Below, piece after piece: positions 17,429-36,062 of a stretch of DNA of 38,430 bases (positions within the stretch are counted from its first letter, which is position 1; each line of letters opens with the position of its first letter). Below the pieces are notes generated by a model. It was not told the origin of the DNA and did not search any database. It saw only the letters and a program-made list of their open reading frames with translations. The stretch spans positions 1 through 38,430 of the forward strand of contig NZ_JAQMSD010000282.1 in the NCBI RefSeq assembly GCF_028330525.1. Reading direction: 5' to 3'. Source of the DNA: Spirulina sp. CS-785/01. GTDB lineage: Bacteria; Cyanobacteriota; Cyanobacteriia; Cyanobacteriales; Spirulinaceae. A program made the translations under genes and the position numbers.

Positions 17429-20400
17429 CTAATTTACCTTAAACTGCTTCACAACTTCCTGTAACTGTTCTGCCGTTGCCACAGAATCTTGTACCACCTT
17501 CGATAACTCCACCGAAGAAGTCGAAGTCGTATTAGAAATTTCAGCAACTTCTCGCATGGTTTGTGTCACCGACTCCGACTGTTTTAACTGCGTTGTGGTT
17601 GCCGTGGTAATGCCTTCGACTAACTCGCTAATTTGTGCTGTAGCTGCGGCAATAGCCGTTAAATTCCCCTTGGTTTCTTCCACTAAATTTGTCCCCACAC
17701 TTACCTGAGTAATAGCGGCCTCAGTGACTTTAATAACCTCGCTAGTTTGGGTGCGAATTTCTGCCACTAAATTGGAGATTTCAGAGGTGGCATTAGCCGA
17801 CTGACGGGCCAAGGACCGCACCTCATCAGCAACCACCGCAAACCCTTTCCCGTATTCTCCCGCACGGGTGGCCTCAATAGCTGCATTCAAGGATAATAAC
17901 TGAGTCTGGGTAGCAAAATCCCCGATTAAATTCACCACGCGGTCAATTTTCTGGGTGGACTCACTCAACTCGCGGATTTTTTGACTCGCTTCCGACACGG
18001 TATCCCGAATGGCCACAATGCCTTCTACTGTCCGGTTCATGGCTTCATCCCCGGATTTTACCGTTTGGTTGGCGTTTTGTACCGCTTGTTCGATAGACTC
18101 CGCATTGGTGTTCACATCCTTGGTAGAGTTGACCATTTTCTGTAACTCCGCCAAAGCTTCATTTAACTCTTGGGCTTGCTGTTGCGCTTGTTCTGCCAAT
18201 TTGCGGATTTGTGCGTCACTCCCGGCGGATTTTTCTGTCACCAAGGCGGTGGCTTTCTGTACCTGCATGACGATGCCTCGGAGACTTTGCAGGGTGTTAT
18301 TATACACATCGGCAATAGTCCCTAGTTCGTCGTCTGAGAGGGGCGCACGCACCGTTAAATCCCCTTCTAATGCCGGACGGACGGCGGAGAGTAACTGGAT
18401 GGCCCGTTGTTGTAAATTTTCTCTGCTGGTTTTTTCTCGGTTTGCTGCTTCGGCGAGTTGGTCAGCTTGTTGGCGGAGTTTTTGCAAGTCTTCGGCCCGT
18501 TGTAGGGCAATTCCCAACTGGGCCCCTAGTTGTACCATGAGTTGAATTTCTGCATCTTCCCAGACTCTGGGCCCCGAACATTGATAGTTGGCTAAGAGTC
18601 CCCAGAGGGTGTCTCCTTGGAAAATTGGCACGGTAATATAAGCTCGGGCCTGGAAGTCTTCTAAGAGTTCTAAATAGCAGGGGGGGAAACCGGAGTTATA
18701 AACGTCATTACTGACGCGGAATTGTTCCCCTTTACGGTAGGTTCCCCCTTGGGTTTTCTGTAAATAGGTGTCTTGGGAGGCCCGTTGTCTGGCCTGCATT
18801 TCTTTGATGGTGCAACCTTCGGTGTCGATGTTGTTGCGGGTTTGTTCTAAGATACTGGGGTCTTCTCCTTGGGCCCCTAATAGGGAGGTCCAACCGGGTT
18901 CGACGGACTCGGCGACGAATTGCCCACTCCAGTCTTCGTTAAACTGATAAATGCCTACTCGGTCGGATTTAAAGATTTTCCGGGCTTCGGTGGTGGCGAT
19001 GCGGAAAATGGTTTTAATTTCGGTGGATTGTTTAATTTTATCACTGATGAGCGCGATCGCGCGTTCCCGTTCGACGGCTTCTTCGAGTTTCTGTTTCTGT
19101 AACTTGAGTTGTTCTAAGTCTTCGGCCCGTTGTAAAGCTATCCCCAACTGGGACCCCAAGTTGACCATCAGTTTAATTTCTTCATCTTTCCACACCCTGG
19201 GCCCAGAACATTGATAACAAGGCATTAACCCCCAGAGGGTTTCCCCAAGGAAGATGGGAACGGTAATATAAGCACGGGCTTGGAAACTTTCGAGGAGTTG
19301 CAAATAACAGTCGGGAAACTCAGAGTTATACACATCATTACTGGCCCGGAATTGTTCCCCTTTACGATAGGTCCCCCCTTTGGTGTCTTGTAAATAGGTA
19401 TCTTGGGAGGCCAGTTGCCGCACTTTCATGTCCTTAATGGTGCAGCCTTCACTGTTAATATTACTATCTGTCCCTTGTAATATCTTCTCATCCTCCACCT
19501 GTGCGCCTAAAAGCGACTTCCAACCGGGGGCGACGGACTCAGCGACAAATTCCCCACTCCAGTCCTCATTAAAGCGATAAATGCCCACTCGGTCTGCTTT
19601 CAGTAACTTGCGGACTTCTTCGGTGGCCACTTTAAAAATGGCGTTGGTATCTTGGAATTGTTTAATTTTATCACTGACCAGCGCGATCGCCCGTTCCCGT
19701 TCCACCGCTTCTTCTAGTTGTGCTTTTTGGACTTTCAGTTGGTCTAAGTCTTCGGCCCGTTGCAAAGCTATTCCTAACTGGGACCCCAAGTTGACGACTA
19801 AATTAATATCTTCTTGTTGCCACACACGGGGACCCGAACATTGATAATTGGCTAATAGTCCCCAGAGTGTCTTACCGAGGAAAATGGGAACAGTAATATA
19901 GGCCCGGGCCTGGAAACTTTCTAATAATTCAATATAACAATCGGGGAATCCTGCCTTATAAATATCATTGGTGGCACGATATTGGTCTCCTTGACGATAT
20001 GTTCCCCCCTGGGTCCGTTGTAAGTAGGTATCTTTGGCCCCTAACTCCTTGGTCCGCATATTTTTAATGGTGCAACCCTCGGTGTTAATATTGGTGTCTG
20101 TCCCTTCTAACAGTTTTGGGTCTTCTCCTTGGGTCCCTAGTAGGGATAACCAACCGGCCCCGACGGACTCGGCCACAAATTCCCCAGTCCAGTCTTCATT
20201 AAAGCGATAAATAACCACTCGGTCTGACTTGAGTAACTGGCGAATTTCTTGGGTTGCGTTGCGGAAAATAATGTTGGTATCGAGGGATTGTTTAATTTTA
20301 TCACTGACTCGTGCGATCGCTTTTTCCCGTTCCACGGCTTGCTGTAACTGGGCCGCTTGTCGTTTCTGTTGTCGCAACGAGGCCGCTTGTTGTAGCGCAA

Positions 20401-21583
20401 CCCCCAACTGGTCGGCAATTTGCAGCATCAGGTTCACCTCCTCACTCTGCCAATGACGGGGCCCCCCGCATTGATAACTAGCCAATAATCCCCATAAGCG
20501 ATCGCCCTGATACACCCCCACGGTAAGATAGGCTTTAGCCTGAATCCGTTCGAGGAGTTCCACATAACAAGCAGGAAACCCCATCTCATACACATTATCG
20601 ACAACGCGATATTTTTCCCCGCGACTATAAACCCCCCCTTTCGTCCGTTCTAAATGCGTATCAACAATTTCCCCCCGTCCCCCAGTCGTCACCATCTGTT
20701 TCAGGTTACAGTCCTCACTATTATCCCGAAACAACTTCTCATCTGGGGGGTTTTGTAGCAGCGAAGTCCACCCCGGTCCCACCGACTCAGCCACAAACTG
20801 GCCACTCCAGTCCCGATTAAAACGATAAATCCCCACCCGGTCTGCTTGCAACAACTGCCGGACTTCCTGCGTAGTAGATTGAAAAATCGTGCGAATATCC
20901 AAAGAACGACGAATGCGGTCTATCACCTTATTGACCGTCTGTTCCCGGACTTGTTGCTGTTGTAACTTCTCCTGATACTGATACCCCACCAAATGCAGGG
21001 ATAAGGCCGTCGCAATTTGGTCTAACAGCGTCGCATCCACCTCTCCCCACCGTCGGGCCTCATTACACTGCTGTACCACCAACAGTCCCCAAATTTGTCC
21101 CCCTAACCGAATTGGAGACGCTAAACTAGAGCGAACCTGGAACTTTTCTAGGAGTTGTAGTTGGTAGGGAGTGACTTGAGTTGTGGCAGAATAGGCAATA
21201 GAGACACATCCCCGGTTATACTCATTACGAATATCCGCCCCAAAAAACGTCGCAGGAAGCGTTTCCCGAACCGCAGGAGTCCACCCTCGGTCAATGGACT
21301 CTGCTAAAACAATTCCTTTTTGTTCTGTCTGAAACTGATAAATTAACGTCCGTGACCCCTGAAACAGTTGTTTCACCTGTTCTACAGTGTTATTCAGTAG
21401 CGCGTTGCGGTTTTTCGCTTGACTGAGAACCGACTGCACCCGCGTTACCTGTTCCCGCATCCACTGAAACTGTTTTTCCAGGTCGGGAGGTGCAAGTTGT
21501 AACGGTTCTTGACTTTGACTCCCATTCTGTTGGGAGGAGGAGTCTTGGGGAGAAGTGGGTTGGTTGGGGTAAATAGCTGTCAT
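17429..21583 (-). CDS. soluble methyl-accepting chemoreceptor with five GAF domains (PixJ-like)
   Basis: 1384 aa with no membrane helix. Order: Gln-rich N-terminus; GAF1 (about 50-205, divergent); GAF2 to GAF5 (about 225-1035), each preceded by a coiled linker such as LEEAVERERAIALISDKIKQ; HAMP-like segment (about 1065-1115, LEGDLTVRAPLSDDELG); and the MCP signalling hairpin with tip LLSLNAAIEATRAGE and FAVVADEVRSLA. It should signal to CheA/CheW, likely in taxis. GAF2-5 look like cyanobacteriochrome GAFs (FNEDWSGEFVAES, TYLQxTxGGTYR), but the bilin-attachment Cys is followed by Tyr (FPACYVELL, FPDCYIELL, FPDCYLQLL, FPPCYLELL) where the canonical pair is Cys-His. The four Cys codons are exactly 630 bp apart. 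GAF1 lacks the Cys (TPYQLQLL). Bilin binding is therefore uncertain. No che genes are adjacent. Confidence 0.93.
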   Translation of the reverse strand: MTAIYPNQPTSPQDSSSQQNGSQSQEPLQLAPPDLEKQFQWMREQVTRVQSVLSQAKNRNALLNNTVEQVKQLFQGSRTLIYQFQTEQKGIVLAESIDRGWTPAVRETLPATFFGADIRNEYNRGCVSIAYSATTQVTPYQLQLLEKFQVRSSLASPIRLGGQIWGLLVVQQCNEARRWGEVDATLLDQIATALSLHLVGYQYQEKLQQQQVREQTVNKVIDRIRRSLDIRTIFQSTTQEVRQLLQADRVGIYRFNRDWSGQFVAESVGPGWTSLLQNPPDEKLFRDNSEDCNLKQMVTTGGRGEIVDTHLERTKGGVYSRGEKYRVVDNVYEMGFPACYVELLERIQAKAYLTVGVYQGDRLWGLLASYQCGGPRHWQSEEVNLMLQIADQLGVALQQAASLRQQKRQAAQLQQAVEREKAIARVSDKIKQSLDTNIIFRNATQEIRQLLKSDRVVIYRFNEDWTGEFVAESVGAGWLSLLGTQGEDPKLLEGTDTNINTEGCTIKNMRTKELGAKDTYLQRTQGGTYRQGDQYRATNDIYKAGFPDCYIELLESFQARAYITVPIFLGKTLWGLLANYQCSGPRVWQQEDINLVVNLGSQLGIALQRAEDLDQLKVQKAQLEEAVERERAIALVSDKIKQFQDTNAIFKVATEEVRKLLKADRVGIYRFNEDWSGEFVAESVAPGWKSLLGAQVEDEKILQGTDSNINSEGCTIKDMKVRQLASQDTYLQDTKGGTYRKGEQFRASNDVYNSEFPDCYLQLLESFQARAYITVPIFLGETLWGLMPCYQCSGPRVWKDEEIKLMVNLGSQLGIALQRAEDLEQLKLQKQKLEEAVERERAIALISDKIKQSTEIKTIFRIATTEARKIFKSDRVGIYQFNEDWSGQFVAESVEPGWTSLLGAQGEDPSILEQTRNNIDTEGCTIKEMQARQRASQDTYLQKTQGGTYRKGEQFRVSNDVYNSGFPPCYLELLEDFQARAYITVPIFQGDTLWGLLANYQCSGPRVWEDAEIQLMVQLGAQLGIALQRAEDLQKLRQQADQLAEAANREKTSRENLQQRAIQLLSAVRPALEGDLTVRAPLSDDELGTIADVYNNTLQSLRGIVMQVQKATALVTEKSAGSDAQIRKLAEQAQQQAQELNEALAELQKMVNSTKDVNTNAESIEQAVQNANQTVKSGDEAMNRTVEGIVAIRDTVSEASQKIRELSESTQKIDRVVNLIGDFATQTQLLSLNAAIEATRAGEYGKGFAVVADEVRSLARQSANATSEISNLVAEIRTQTSEVIKVTEAAITQVSVGTNLVEETKGNLTAIAAATAQISELVEGITTATTTQLKQSESVTQTMREVAEISNTTSTSSVELSKVVQDSVATAEQLQEVVKQFKVN

Positions 21584-21750: not shown

Positions 21751-22098
21751 TTAACCCACATCTATGGGAGAAAAAGGAGTTCTCGAATAATTGGCCTGTC
21801 CCTTACCTGCCATAATTTTTTCTGACTTAAAAGAAACCTTTAACTCCGGTAACTCTGAAGTCTCTAACCGTCTCCCGATTTCTGCTTTGGCTAACTCCAG
21901 TTTAGGAAATTCTGGGCTTGTTCCAAAGGGAATCCACACACTATAGTTATTCAGGGACGGAATTTTAATATTAACTTTGGCCGGAGCAACCCGTTTACGG
22001 GGGGATACATAAAATTGAGTAAGATACCCTTCCCCATTGTCTAATTTATTGTCTAATTTTAAGGCGGGTTTCGCAAAATCCCGCAAATAGTCTTCCAA
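21751..22098 (-). CDS. hypothetical protein, 115 aa, possibly a 3' fragment
   Basis: I do not recognise it. The residue pattern is protein-like: Lys/Glu-rich, with segments GYLTQFYVSPRKRVAPAKVN and FPKLELAKAEIGRRLE. No signal peptide or membrane helix is seen. The only N-terminal start is a TTG (22098) without a ribosome site. Two codons upstream in the same frame is a TAG (22105-22107), before which the frame stays open back to 22404. An ATG at 22332, overlapping the prmA end by 17 bases, could start a 192-residue protein if the TAG were sense. So this may be a short real gene, the tail of a broken gene, or non-coding. It lies between prmA and the chemoreceptor gene on the same strand. Confidence 0.4.
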   Translation of the reverse strand: MEDYLRDFAKPALKLDNKLDNGEGYLTQFYVSPRKRVAPAKVNIKIPSLNNYSVWIPFGTSPEFPKLELAKAEIGRRLETSELPELKVSFKSEKIMAGKGQANYSRTPFSPIDVG

Positions 22099-34310: not shown

Positions 34311-36062
34311 TTAATTTTCCCCCTCCCAAGAGGGGAGTACAGAAGTCAAGTCCTCCAGTAACTCCTGTTCCTCTGCGGAGAAAACCGGACTGTCTCCCGT
34401 TACCTCTGTTATAATTGTCTCCCGTTGACTCGCCAAGGTGTCTCGGCGGTTTTGTAGGTCGGTCATCATCTTATCTGGCCAAACCGAAACCGTGGCATTT
34501 TCCGCTAAATCTCCCCCACTGGCCCGCATTTCAAAACTGGCCGTCGGGGTATTAAACTCTAATTTAACGGGAAACGCTAAGGGATTATCCGCATTGACAC
34601 TGGGTTCAATGCCACTAATGGTAAATTTCTTCACTCCTTCCCCATTCACCAGTAAATCGCCTAATTCTTCTTGATAGTCGGCAAAATCTACTGTTTCCTC
34701 AGAGCTAAATTCCCCCAAAACCACGCCTTCGACGGACACGGTAAAACGGTCATCGGCATCAATATCCGAGGGTAAACCACTAATTTCGGTAAAGAGAGAG
34801 TTATCTACGGTTTCCGTTCCCGTCATCCCCGGAAATACGCGACCCAATAACCCCACAGGTTGCTCGGAGGGGAGCATTTCATATTCAAAACTATCGGCCA
34901 TGGGTGGGTCAAACCAGTTCCCCCCCCACACATTAGTAAAGACAAACACACTAATCCGAATTCTGACAGGTAGCACCGGAAGGCTGGGTCGCAGACCAAT
35001 ACCACCGCGAGGGGGTGGATTAGGTCGCCAACGGTTACGGTTGGGACCTCCATCATTGGAGCTATTATTGGGAGGTTCAACATCATCTACAGCATCTTGT
35101 AAGCCTTGATTATTCGGAGGTTCTGCTACGTCACTGCCTGTACCTGTGTTACTGCCTGTACCTGTATTACTGCCTGTACCTGTATTACTGCCTGTACCTG
35201 TATTACTGCCTGTACCTGTATTACTGCCTGTACCTGCGTTACTGCCTGCACTTGAGCCATCTGGACCACTTGTTGTGCCAAGATCAGGAGGTTCAGAGCC
35301 TTCTATTTCGATTGGCCCTTCAATGGTTGTATCAGACTCAGTGGAAGGCAATGCGTCAAGGTTAGTATTGATGTTAGAAATTGTGCTAAACCCAGGAGGA
35401 TTCGGGACTTGAATTGAGCCACCCGTTAAACTGGTCTCAAAATCCGCTTCAAAACTGATCCCATCGTCACGCCTTACAAAGGCTTCTGCGGGAGCTAGTC
35501 TCGTATCAACCGGATTATCAGGAGATTTTTGATACTGCACTAAAACCACAGTTCGGGTGTCTTGTACTGAACCACTACCCTCACTACTAAACCCAGTTCC
35601 CTGTGTTCCTAACTCAAATGGCCCCGTATTATAGCGAATGAAATCAGTAGCCGAATCAATGGAAATTTGCTCAATTTGAAATCTTAGGGTTGTGGGTAAA
35701 TCGTTGAAAAAAGCCCGTTGACCGTTTGCGCCAAACCCTTGAAAGGTTAATGTGCCGAAGACTGAACCTCGATCGCCTACCTTGGGAACTCCCCCAGGTC
35801 GGACTCGGAGTTGGGGTAAGGTGCGGCTTTCAAAGCGGGCATTGAGGGGGATTTGGCCTTGGGAAGTCCGGATCATATAGCTAGTAGGTGTAGCCCCTTC
35901 CCAAACATCTGCATCGCCAGCCCCAAAATTTTCCGGGACAAAAATTTGGGTGTCTTCAAAATTCGCAAATCCTCCGGTGACTCGTAAGGTTTGACTGTGA
36001 ACCGGAAGGGCAATTAATGTCCCCCCTAAGAGTCCGGTTAGTGCCAGTGATAATTTGTTCAT
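34311..36062 (-). CDS. exported repeat-containing protein, function unknown
   Basis: 583 aa. A signal peptide (MNKLSLALTGLLGGTLIALP, cut likely after VHS) directs export. The N-terminal half (about 25-245) is beta-rich (LRVTGGFANFEDTQ, GSVFGTLTFQGFG). Residues about 270-320 are a low-complexity linker of (NTGTGS) units. A Pro/Arg-rich stretch (NRNRWRPNPPPRGG) leads into a second beta-rich domain (about 355-545). The end has a helix and acidic tail. The only recognisable architecture is two exported domains joined by a flexible linker. It starts 26 bases after the porin gene stops and is surely co-transcribed with it, so a periplasmic or outer-membrane role is inferred. Confidence 0.75.
   Translation of the reverse strand: MNKLSLALTGLLGGTLIALPVHSQTLRVTGGFANFEDTQIFVPENFGAGDADVWEGATPTSYMIRTSQGQIPLNARFESRTLPQLRVRPGGVPKVGDRGSVFGTLTFQGFGANGQRAFFNDLPTTLRFQIEQISIDSATDFIRYNTGPFELGTQGTGFSSEGSGSVQDTRTVVLVQYQKSPDNPVDTRLAPAEAFVRRDDGISFEADFETSLTGGSIQVPNPPGFSTISNINTNLDALPSTESDTTIEGPIEIEGSEPPDLGTTSGPDGSSAGSNAGTGSNTGTGSNTGTGSNTGTGSNTGTGSNTGTGSDVAEPPNNQGLQDAVDDVEPPNNSSNDGGPNRNRWRPNPPPRGGIGLRPSLPVLPVRIRISVFVFTNVWGGNWFDPPMADSFEYEMLPSEQPVGLLGRVFPGMTGTETVDNSLFTEISGLPSDIDADDRFTVSVEGVVLGEFSSEETVDFADYQEELGDLLVNGEGVKKFTISGIEPSVNADNPLAFPVKLEFNTPTASFEMRASGGDLAENATVSVWPDKMMTDLQNRRDTLASQRETIITEVTGDSPVFSAEEQELLEDLTSVLPSWEGEN
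35131..35256. repeat. 18-bp coding minisatellite, about 7 units
   Basis: Seven 18-base units of the form ATTACTGCCTGTACCTGT lie inside the exported-protein gene. The middle four are identical; outer units have single changes. It encodes the (NTGTGS) linker. In-frame units mean that copy-number change would alter linker length without frameshift. Confidence 0.85.

Follow-up and report, generated by a model that had tools for sequence, protein, structure and literature searches.

A tandem array of four two-cysteine bilin-type GAF modules in a putative phototaxis receptor of Spirulina sp. CS-785/01

A 38,430-nucleotide stretch of DNA from Spirulina sp. CS-785/01 (NZ_JAQMSD010000282.1, positions 1 to 38,430; this whole stretch is here called the window) includes the gene of a chemoreceptor in which four GAF modules follow one another at exactly equal distances and carry tyrosine in place of the histidine of a Cys-His pair. 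What does such a receptor sense, and how did its array arise? A preliminary description of the locus supposed that the modules might be blind, might bind bilin in an altered way or might sense something else through paired cysteines, and proposed recent tandem duplication or gene conversion as the source of the spacing. We consider it probable that the product is a phototaxis receptor of the PixJ/PtxD type whose four distal GAFs are insert-Cys (dual-Cys) cyanobacteriochromes (CBCRs). The gene product is most likely a cyanobacterial light receptor in which four similar modules bind bilin and belong to an already known two-cysteine type; the features which look odd would then be normal for that type, and the receptor a tidy example and not a new kind of sensor. 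What is unusual about it is that the array is uniformly built and has natural copy-number variants.

Cysteines and class of the repeated modules

The receptor gene (17429..21583, minus strand), delimited by its open reading frame (ORF) and by Pfam, specifies 1384 amino acids with five GAF modules and an MCP signalling domain (best Pfam stretch, residues 1195-1349; 17537..18001, minus strand). On the same strand lie GAF1 (residues 43-200; 20984..21457), GAF2 (residues 213-412; 20348..20947), GAF3 (residues 425-622; 19718..20311), GAF4 (residues 635-832; 19088..19681) and GAF5 (residues 845-1042; 18458..19051). GAF1 lacks the canonical Cys where the other modules align with it, and its chromophore region is shortened or missing; it probably does not bind bilin. 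The Pfam stretches, together with the matches to CBCR GAFs given below, bear out the earlier view of phytochrome-like, bilin-type GAFs on a chemoreceptor.

Translation of the ORF agrees with the spacing and the substitution first described. The canonical Cys codons start at 18677, 19307, 19937 and 20567 (Cys969, Cys759, Cys549 and Cys339), exactly 630 bp or 210 residues apart, and Tyr is the next residue in all four modules. This exactness exceeds chance: GAF3, GAF4 and GAF5 align without gaps at 68-72% pairwise identity, and the same period occurs in relatives. GAF2 is 52-55% identical to these three and has small indels in its loop. A second Cys is found at residues 292, 504, 714 and 924, that is, in steps of 212, 210 and 210, so GAF2 stands outside the common internal register; since its loop precedes its canonical Cys, the GAF2-GAF3 Cys distance is independent of that loop and the period masks the divergence of GAF2. 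The preliminary description had placed this second Cys in an E(G/D)C motif near TYLQ; the residue is present in each module, with EGC...DTYLQ in GAF3-5 only, the EDC of GAF2 being followed by DTHL. A third Cys, in YQC, again recurs exactly every 210 residues (372, 582, 792 and 1002; codons 20468-20470, 19838-19840, 19208-19210 and 18578-18580 in GAF2, GAF3, GAF4 and GAF5, respectively). YQC occurs in all 46 modules of the sampled family against 66 of 258 other canonical-Cys GAFs, most sampled CBCR GAFs having YQN. GAF4 alone carries an extra Cys at residue 789 (19217-19219, LMPCYQC), without counterpart in GAF2, GAF3 or GAF5.

Insert-Cys CBCRs are described, in parts of PMC5240096 and alongside it PMC5578081, as having the second Cys in an insertion loop; the former places it in a poorly conserved CXXR/K motif and has the DXCF position occupied by Asp and Tyr, as DTYL in UG1. 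The modules of the window carry this signature: the loop reads CNLK in GAF2 (Cys292) and CTIK in GAF3 (Cys504), GAF4 (Cys714) and GAF5 (Cys924), and DTYL occupies the DXCF position in three of the four modules, the DTHL of GAF2 being the exception. A role for the paired cysteines is likely. In GAF3-5 the loop Cys lies 14 residues before the Asp, and that Asp 39 residues before the alpha-4 position; the published numbers of Mbl3738g2 (C569, D583, L622) give the same two distances, with the beta-2 position displaced by one residue. Neither the canonical Cys nor the DTYL Asp varies in 75 aligned rows, picked for high GAF score. Among PDB chains, CBCR GAFs such as AnPixJg2, NpR6012g4 and Slr1393g3 were best by sequence and, for GAF4, also by fold. 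An AlphaFold model of GAF4 (mean pLDDT 79.5) found 5zoh as its top Foldseek match, followed by 3w2z; the former is AnPixJg2_BV4, a bilin-bound CBCR.

The tyrosine after the canonical cysteine

Cys-His had been taken as the canonical state, and Cys-Tyr as a possible mark of blind or altered modules. We collected 404 GAF stretches from loci mostly retrieved using the window's own sequence, a bias of the sample, and 304 of them have the canonical Cys. Where a loop Cys is also present, as scored by position (n=166, some short-loop rows included), 153 modules have Cys-Tyr and 13 Cys-His; where it is absent (n=138), Cys-His is commoner (103), with 28 Cys-Tyr and 7 others. Thinning at 70% identity left 84 Cys-Tyr and four Cys-His modules with the loop Cys, two of these four being short-loop rows, and 56 Cys-His, 19 Cys-Tyr and seven others without it. 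A smaller earlier set gave 125 and 1 with the loop Cys, and 60 Cys-His, 20 Cys-Tyr and 5 others without. Cys-Tyr is the majority state of sampled modules like those of the window, and the view that it marks blind or anomalous modules is not supported. The association would separate insert-Cys from most single-Cys modules by one letter, and we cannot claim that it was previously unnoticed. Repeated co-evolution of the two features could not be demonstrated, a 114-row tree offering only four and six independent pairs on well-supported branches; with so few the sign test is powerless, so the association may stem from one ancestor.

Characterised proteins provide precedents. Loci L095, L097 and L123 have their insert Cys at position 298 (first Met = 1) in a module with Cys-Tyr, and their module 1 has DHCF; in L096 the insert Cys is residue 299. 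As the insert Cys of NpR1597g2 is published as C298, these four are probable NpR1597 orthologues by their sequences, identity not being claimed. Loci L098-L100 encode seven GAFs each, of which modules 2, 3 and 5 have Cys-Tyr in all three. In L098 the insert Cys (549) and Leu 965 both lie at +3 relative to their published counterparts in NpF2164, C546 and L962. Around its canonical Cys, the fifth GAF agrees with the peptide encoded by a primer in the available part of PMC7504144, translated by hand, save at the Leu962 change and one His-to-Tyr. We regard L098-L100 as probable orthologues of NpF2164, here too without claiming identity. The His-to-Tyr difference from that primer we take to be one BV4 change. 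NpF2164g5 itself is stated to have a CY motif and to bind bilin covalently (PMC9378818 and PMC7504144, in part), and a variant of SPI1085g3 in which CH was changed to CY reportedly bound more biliverdin, fluoresced more and reverted more slowly (the same portion of PMC9378818). Cys-Tyr is on this showing compatible with covalent bilin binding, though it may weaken photoconversion where a module has a single Cys. The same genome encodes another insert-Cys, Cys-Tyr GAF, which is part of a hybrid histidine kinase containing PAS, GAF and receiver domains (L140:1726-6108).

Register, age and homogenisation of the array

Linkers were measured wherever two anchors aligned, starting at the Trp of one module's WGL and ending at the Arg of the following module's RVxxY. 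In 258 pairs from 79 proteins they comprise 84 residues (69 pairs), 91 (138), 98 (10) or 105 (2), so that 219 are multiples of seven, 18 are one residue longer and 21 have other lengths; at 45% identity thinning leaves multiples of seven in 49 of 62. With lengths of 84, 91, 91 and 91 in the window, the suggestion that helical register is preserved is supported. Because Cys-His and Cys-Tyr modules show the same linker values, the 210-residue period is the common linker plus a constant loop. The idea that 210 represents 30 heptads was dropped: other receptors have periods of 183, 200 or 207 with the same 84/91 linkers, and it is therefore the linker that is quantised and not the period. A tandem model of GAF4-GAF5 predicts one continuous helix of 53 residues (800-852; 19028..19186, minus strand) with pLDDT block means of 75-91, its pTM of 0.50 making the relative placement of the two domains unreliable. 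The heptad linker principle is already published, PMC6798134 in the part consulted describing heptad linkers and naming the regular spacing of GAF domains in CBCRs.

Nine of the twelve sampled genomes of the family (G001, G002, G004, G005, G007, G009, G010, G011 and G012) have Cys-Tyr modules that follow one another every 210 residues; one Cys in L012 and one in L041 escaped the search pattern, and both appear in the alignments. G001 has array copies on two contigs, and the frame of G004 contains one stop inside the match. Spacing differs in G003 and G006, and G008 yielded a partial match only (45%). Whole arrays in relatives hold four, five or six bilin-type modules, and all 46 family modules of the set combine the loop Cys with Cys-Tyr. 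A Xenococcaceae metagenome-assembled genome is also a relative (41% in the best segment). In a 97-row module tree ten rows of GAF2 cluster in a single clade (100/99) and ten of the last module in a second (97/97), each spanning ten genomes, and middle modules appear as sister pairs within G002, G005 and G007. The tree, which the preliminary description had wanted for dating the duplication, indicates that it predates the sampled family and that middle modules have been gained and lost. Exact spacing and the gap-free alignment of GAF3-5 are what a recent tandem duplication in this species would leave, and that part of the earlier proposal is now scarcely credible: it is contradicted by the positional clades and by the spread of the array among relatives, and GAF3-5 differ at 28-32% of their residues.

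The other part, gene conversion, finds some support at synonymous sites. Four-fold site identity among GAF3-5 is 0.54-0.57, above both the 0.43-0.48 seen against same-position modules of G009 and the values expected from codon use (0.33 within the gene, 0.34 against G009). At the residue level GAF3 and GAF5 resemble their G009 counterparts (0.75 and 0.80) more than they resemble one another (0.66); the nearest relatives of GAF4 in the module tree are not in G009. When four-fold sites were compared four ways, within-genome outnumbered positional agreement by 11:1 of 47 sites in G007, 7:3 of 44 in G009, 5:0 of 35 in G011 and 8:3 of 40 in G002, and by only 5:4 of 41 in G005, the counts being small and the comparisons overlapping. 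Residues gave the opposite balance, positional to within-genome counts being 15:4 in G007, 17:1 in G009, 13:7 in G011, 15:5 in G002 and 16:5 in G005. Base make-up, which varies between rows, would alone predict a smaller within-genome excess (0.097 to 0.044 of sites for G007, 0.058 to 0.049 for G009). A tree of third positions groups the window's three modules with support of 85/74 (28 rows) and 90/88 (21 rows), leaves the G009 modules ungrouped and pairs G011 with G012 by position. Partial homogenisation of the modules by gene conversion is thus moderately supported by the sequences. As the origin of the array we lean towards an old duplication with continuing gene conversion and birth and death of middle modules in a fixed register. 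The raised four-fold identity, the opposed balances at four-fold sites and residues and the sister modules within three genomes favour it; the near-even count in G005, the modest third-position grouping and the uneven base make-up tell against it. Such an origin is compatible with the modules being insert-Cys CBCRs. A literature search for cyanobacteriochrome and gene conversion together, with most subscription journals outside its coverage, found no paper.

Light response, partners and known systems

From sequence comparison we infer bilin binding, a photocycle and its colour, a che partnership and a role in phototaxis. The Cys of Cys-Tyr would attach phycocyanobilin to each distal module. 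In darkness the loop Cys of CXXK would add to C10 of the bilin and move absorption to the near-UV or violet; light would then isomerise C15=C16, releasing the second thioether and giving a longer-wavelength form. Coiled-coil linkers that keep the heptad register would pass the signal on to the MCP tip, and the tip would control a CheA/CheW pair and CheY-type response regulators and, through these, type IV pili. According to part of PMC5240096, the pocket is made smaller by bulky residues at beta-2 and alpha-4, and with smaller residues there both states shift to the red. Both positions hold Phe in GAF3-5, and in GAF2 they hold Phe and Ile; at beta-2 the L098 module that is probably orthologous to VO1 has Val. 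Because GAF3-5 keep the two Phe residues, near-UV dark states and blue-to-green products are expected, not violet/orange ones, and this is the least certain step.

The genome has one Fe_bilin_red match (E 3.3e-74), in a search for bilin reductase. No che, MCP or response-regulator family was detected among the 20 other window ORFs scanned, and none of the eight CheW stretches of the genome is on the window's contig. The distant che genes that the preliminary description thought worth seeking have candidates on contig C191, whose CheA and CheW match the pair of G002 (65% in the best stretch, and 45%). The gene order in G002 is DUF4388 response regulator, receptor, CheA, CheW, and in G009 two response regulators lie upstream of the receptor, one of them with DUF4388, which we take to be the Pfam name for the PATAN region. 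PATAN-CheY proteins occur in tax operons, as stated in a portion of PMC5812497. With the C191 CheA as query, 10 of 13 genomes, its own included, gave a match of E 1e-100 or better. Six of ten (G001, G002, G003, G005, G006 and G015) have a CheA on the same strand as the best receptor match and downstream of it by at most about 2 kb; the two are on separate contigs in G000, G004, G007 and G014, the last having a second receptor-type match about 2 kb from a CheA match. The receptor match lies at most 1.3 kb from a contig end in G004, G007 and G014 and is mid-contig in G000, so that in G000 the separation is no assembly edge. Response regulators matching that of G002 along most of its length are on contigs C32, C71, C158, C342 and C233. 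The C191 CheA/CheW locus (L186:1307-8555) neighbours AAA-ATPase, DUF3226 and PIN-domain genes, as if a phototaxis cluster had been split. Two ORFs of the window have no Pfam or NCBIfam match: one of 115 amino acids with a TTG start, upstream of the receptor (21751-22098), and one of 583 amino acids between the SecA and OprB/SLH porin genes (34311-36062).

Several points weigh against a photoswitching phototaxis receptor. The expected colours depend on a single paper; the insert loop of the GAF4 model has pLDDT below 50, so its Cys cannot be placed in the pocket; and the gene stands apart in its own genome from its presumed che partners, which are assigned by homology only. Moreover, the portion of PMC9378818 dealing with the single-Cys Cys-Tyr proteins NpF2164g5 and miRFP670nano gives photoconversion as not detectable, so weak photochemistry is possible. 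The modules might accordingly bind bilin and yet be mainly light-stable, fluorescent or slow, with Tyr stacked on ring C, making a weakly photoactive or integrating sensor. We judge this rather unlikely. NpF2164g5 is highly fluorescent there, and the SPI1085g3 variant strongly so, with slow reversion; however, both are single-Cys modules, the variant still photoconverts, and photocycles are reported for the insert-Cys modules NpF2164g3 and NpR1597g2 (part of PMC5240096), whose probable orthologues have Cys-Tyr.

Sensing of redox state or of a thiol-reactive compound, with bilin unbound, would give a use to the three conserved cysteines of each module and to the YQC common to the family; with the canonical Cys and DTYL Asp invariant in the high-scoring rows, and a bilin-bound CBCR as top structural match, it is very improbable. 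An elaboration that we hold to be doubtful makes the receptor a homogenised near-UV/violet counter: four like dual-Cys modules on one coiled-coil spine, kept alike by gene conversion and gained or lost as whole units (four to six copies) in heptad register, with copy number tuning the UV dose response and Cys-Tyr forming part of the thiol-switch chemistry. With bilin-type modules all of one dual-Cys type and natural four-, five- and six-copy variants in related genomes, the receptor would offer a ready means of studying why a sensor is repeated within one protein.

The phototaxis receptor with insert-Cys modules that we prefer has several counterparts. AnPixJg2 and NpR6012g4, red/green CBCR GAFs among the best sequence and fold matches, lack the 27-residue longer Cys loop of the window's modules and have Cys-His in the aligned chains. 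PixJ1 of Synechocystis, a CBCR-MCP, has CheA, CheW and CheY-type partners, as in the relative G002, but has two GAFs with bilin in the second only and, by the same part of PMC5812497, two transmembrane domains. With the known insert-Cys CBCRs (NpF2164g2/g3, NpR1597g2, Mbr3854g4 and Mbl3738g2) the modules share the loop Cys in CXXK/R, an Asp motif replacing DXCF and the canonical Cys, and with their probable Nostoc orthologues Cys-Tyr. They differ in their number, four in one receptor at a single spacing, in having YQC, against YQN in the insert-Cys modules of L096, L098 and L123, and, for GAF2, in DTHL and a loop-Cys-to-Asp distance of 16. PtxD (NpF2164) of Nostoc punctiforme, required for positive phototaxis, also has several GAFs before its MCP domain, and it has che partners (PMC5812497, in part); the window's gene does not lie beside che genes in its own genome. 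Its probable orthologues have, like the window's receptor, a first GAF without canonical Cys and adjacent insert-Cys modules, two in their case; they mix insert-Cys with single-Cys modules, whereas the four bilin-type modules of the Spirulina receptor are all insert-Cys.

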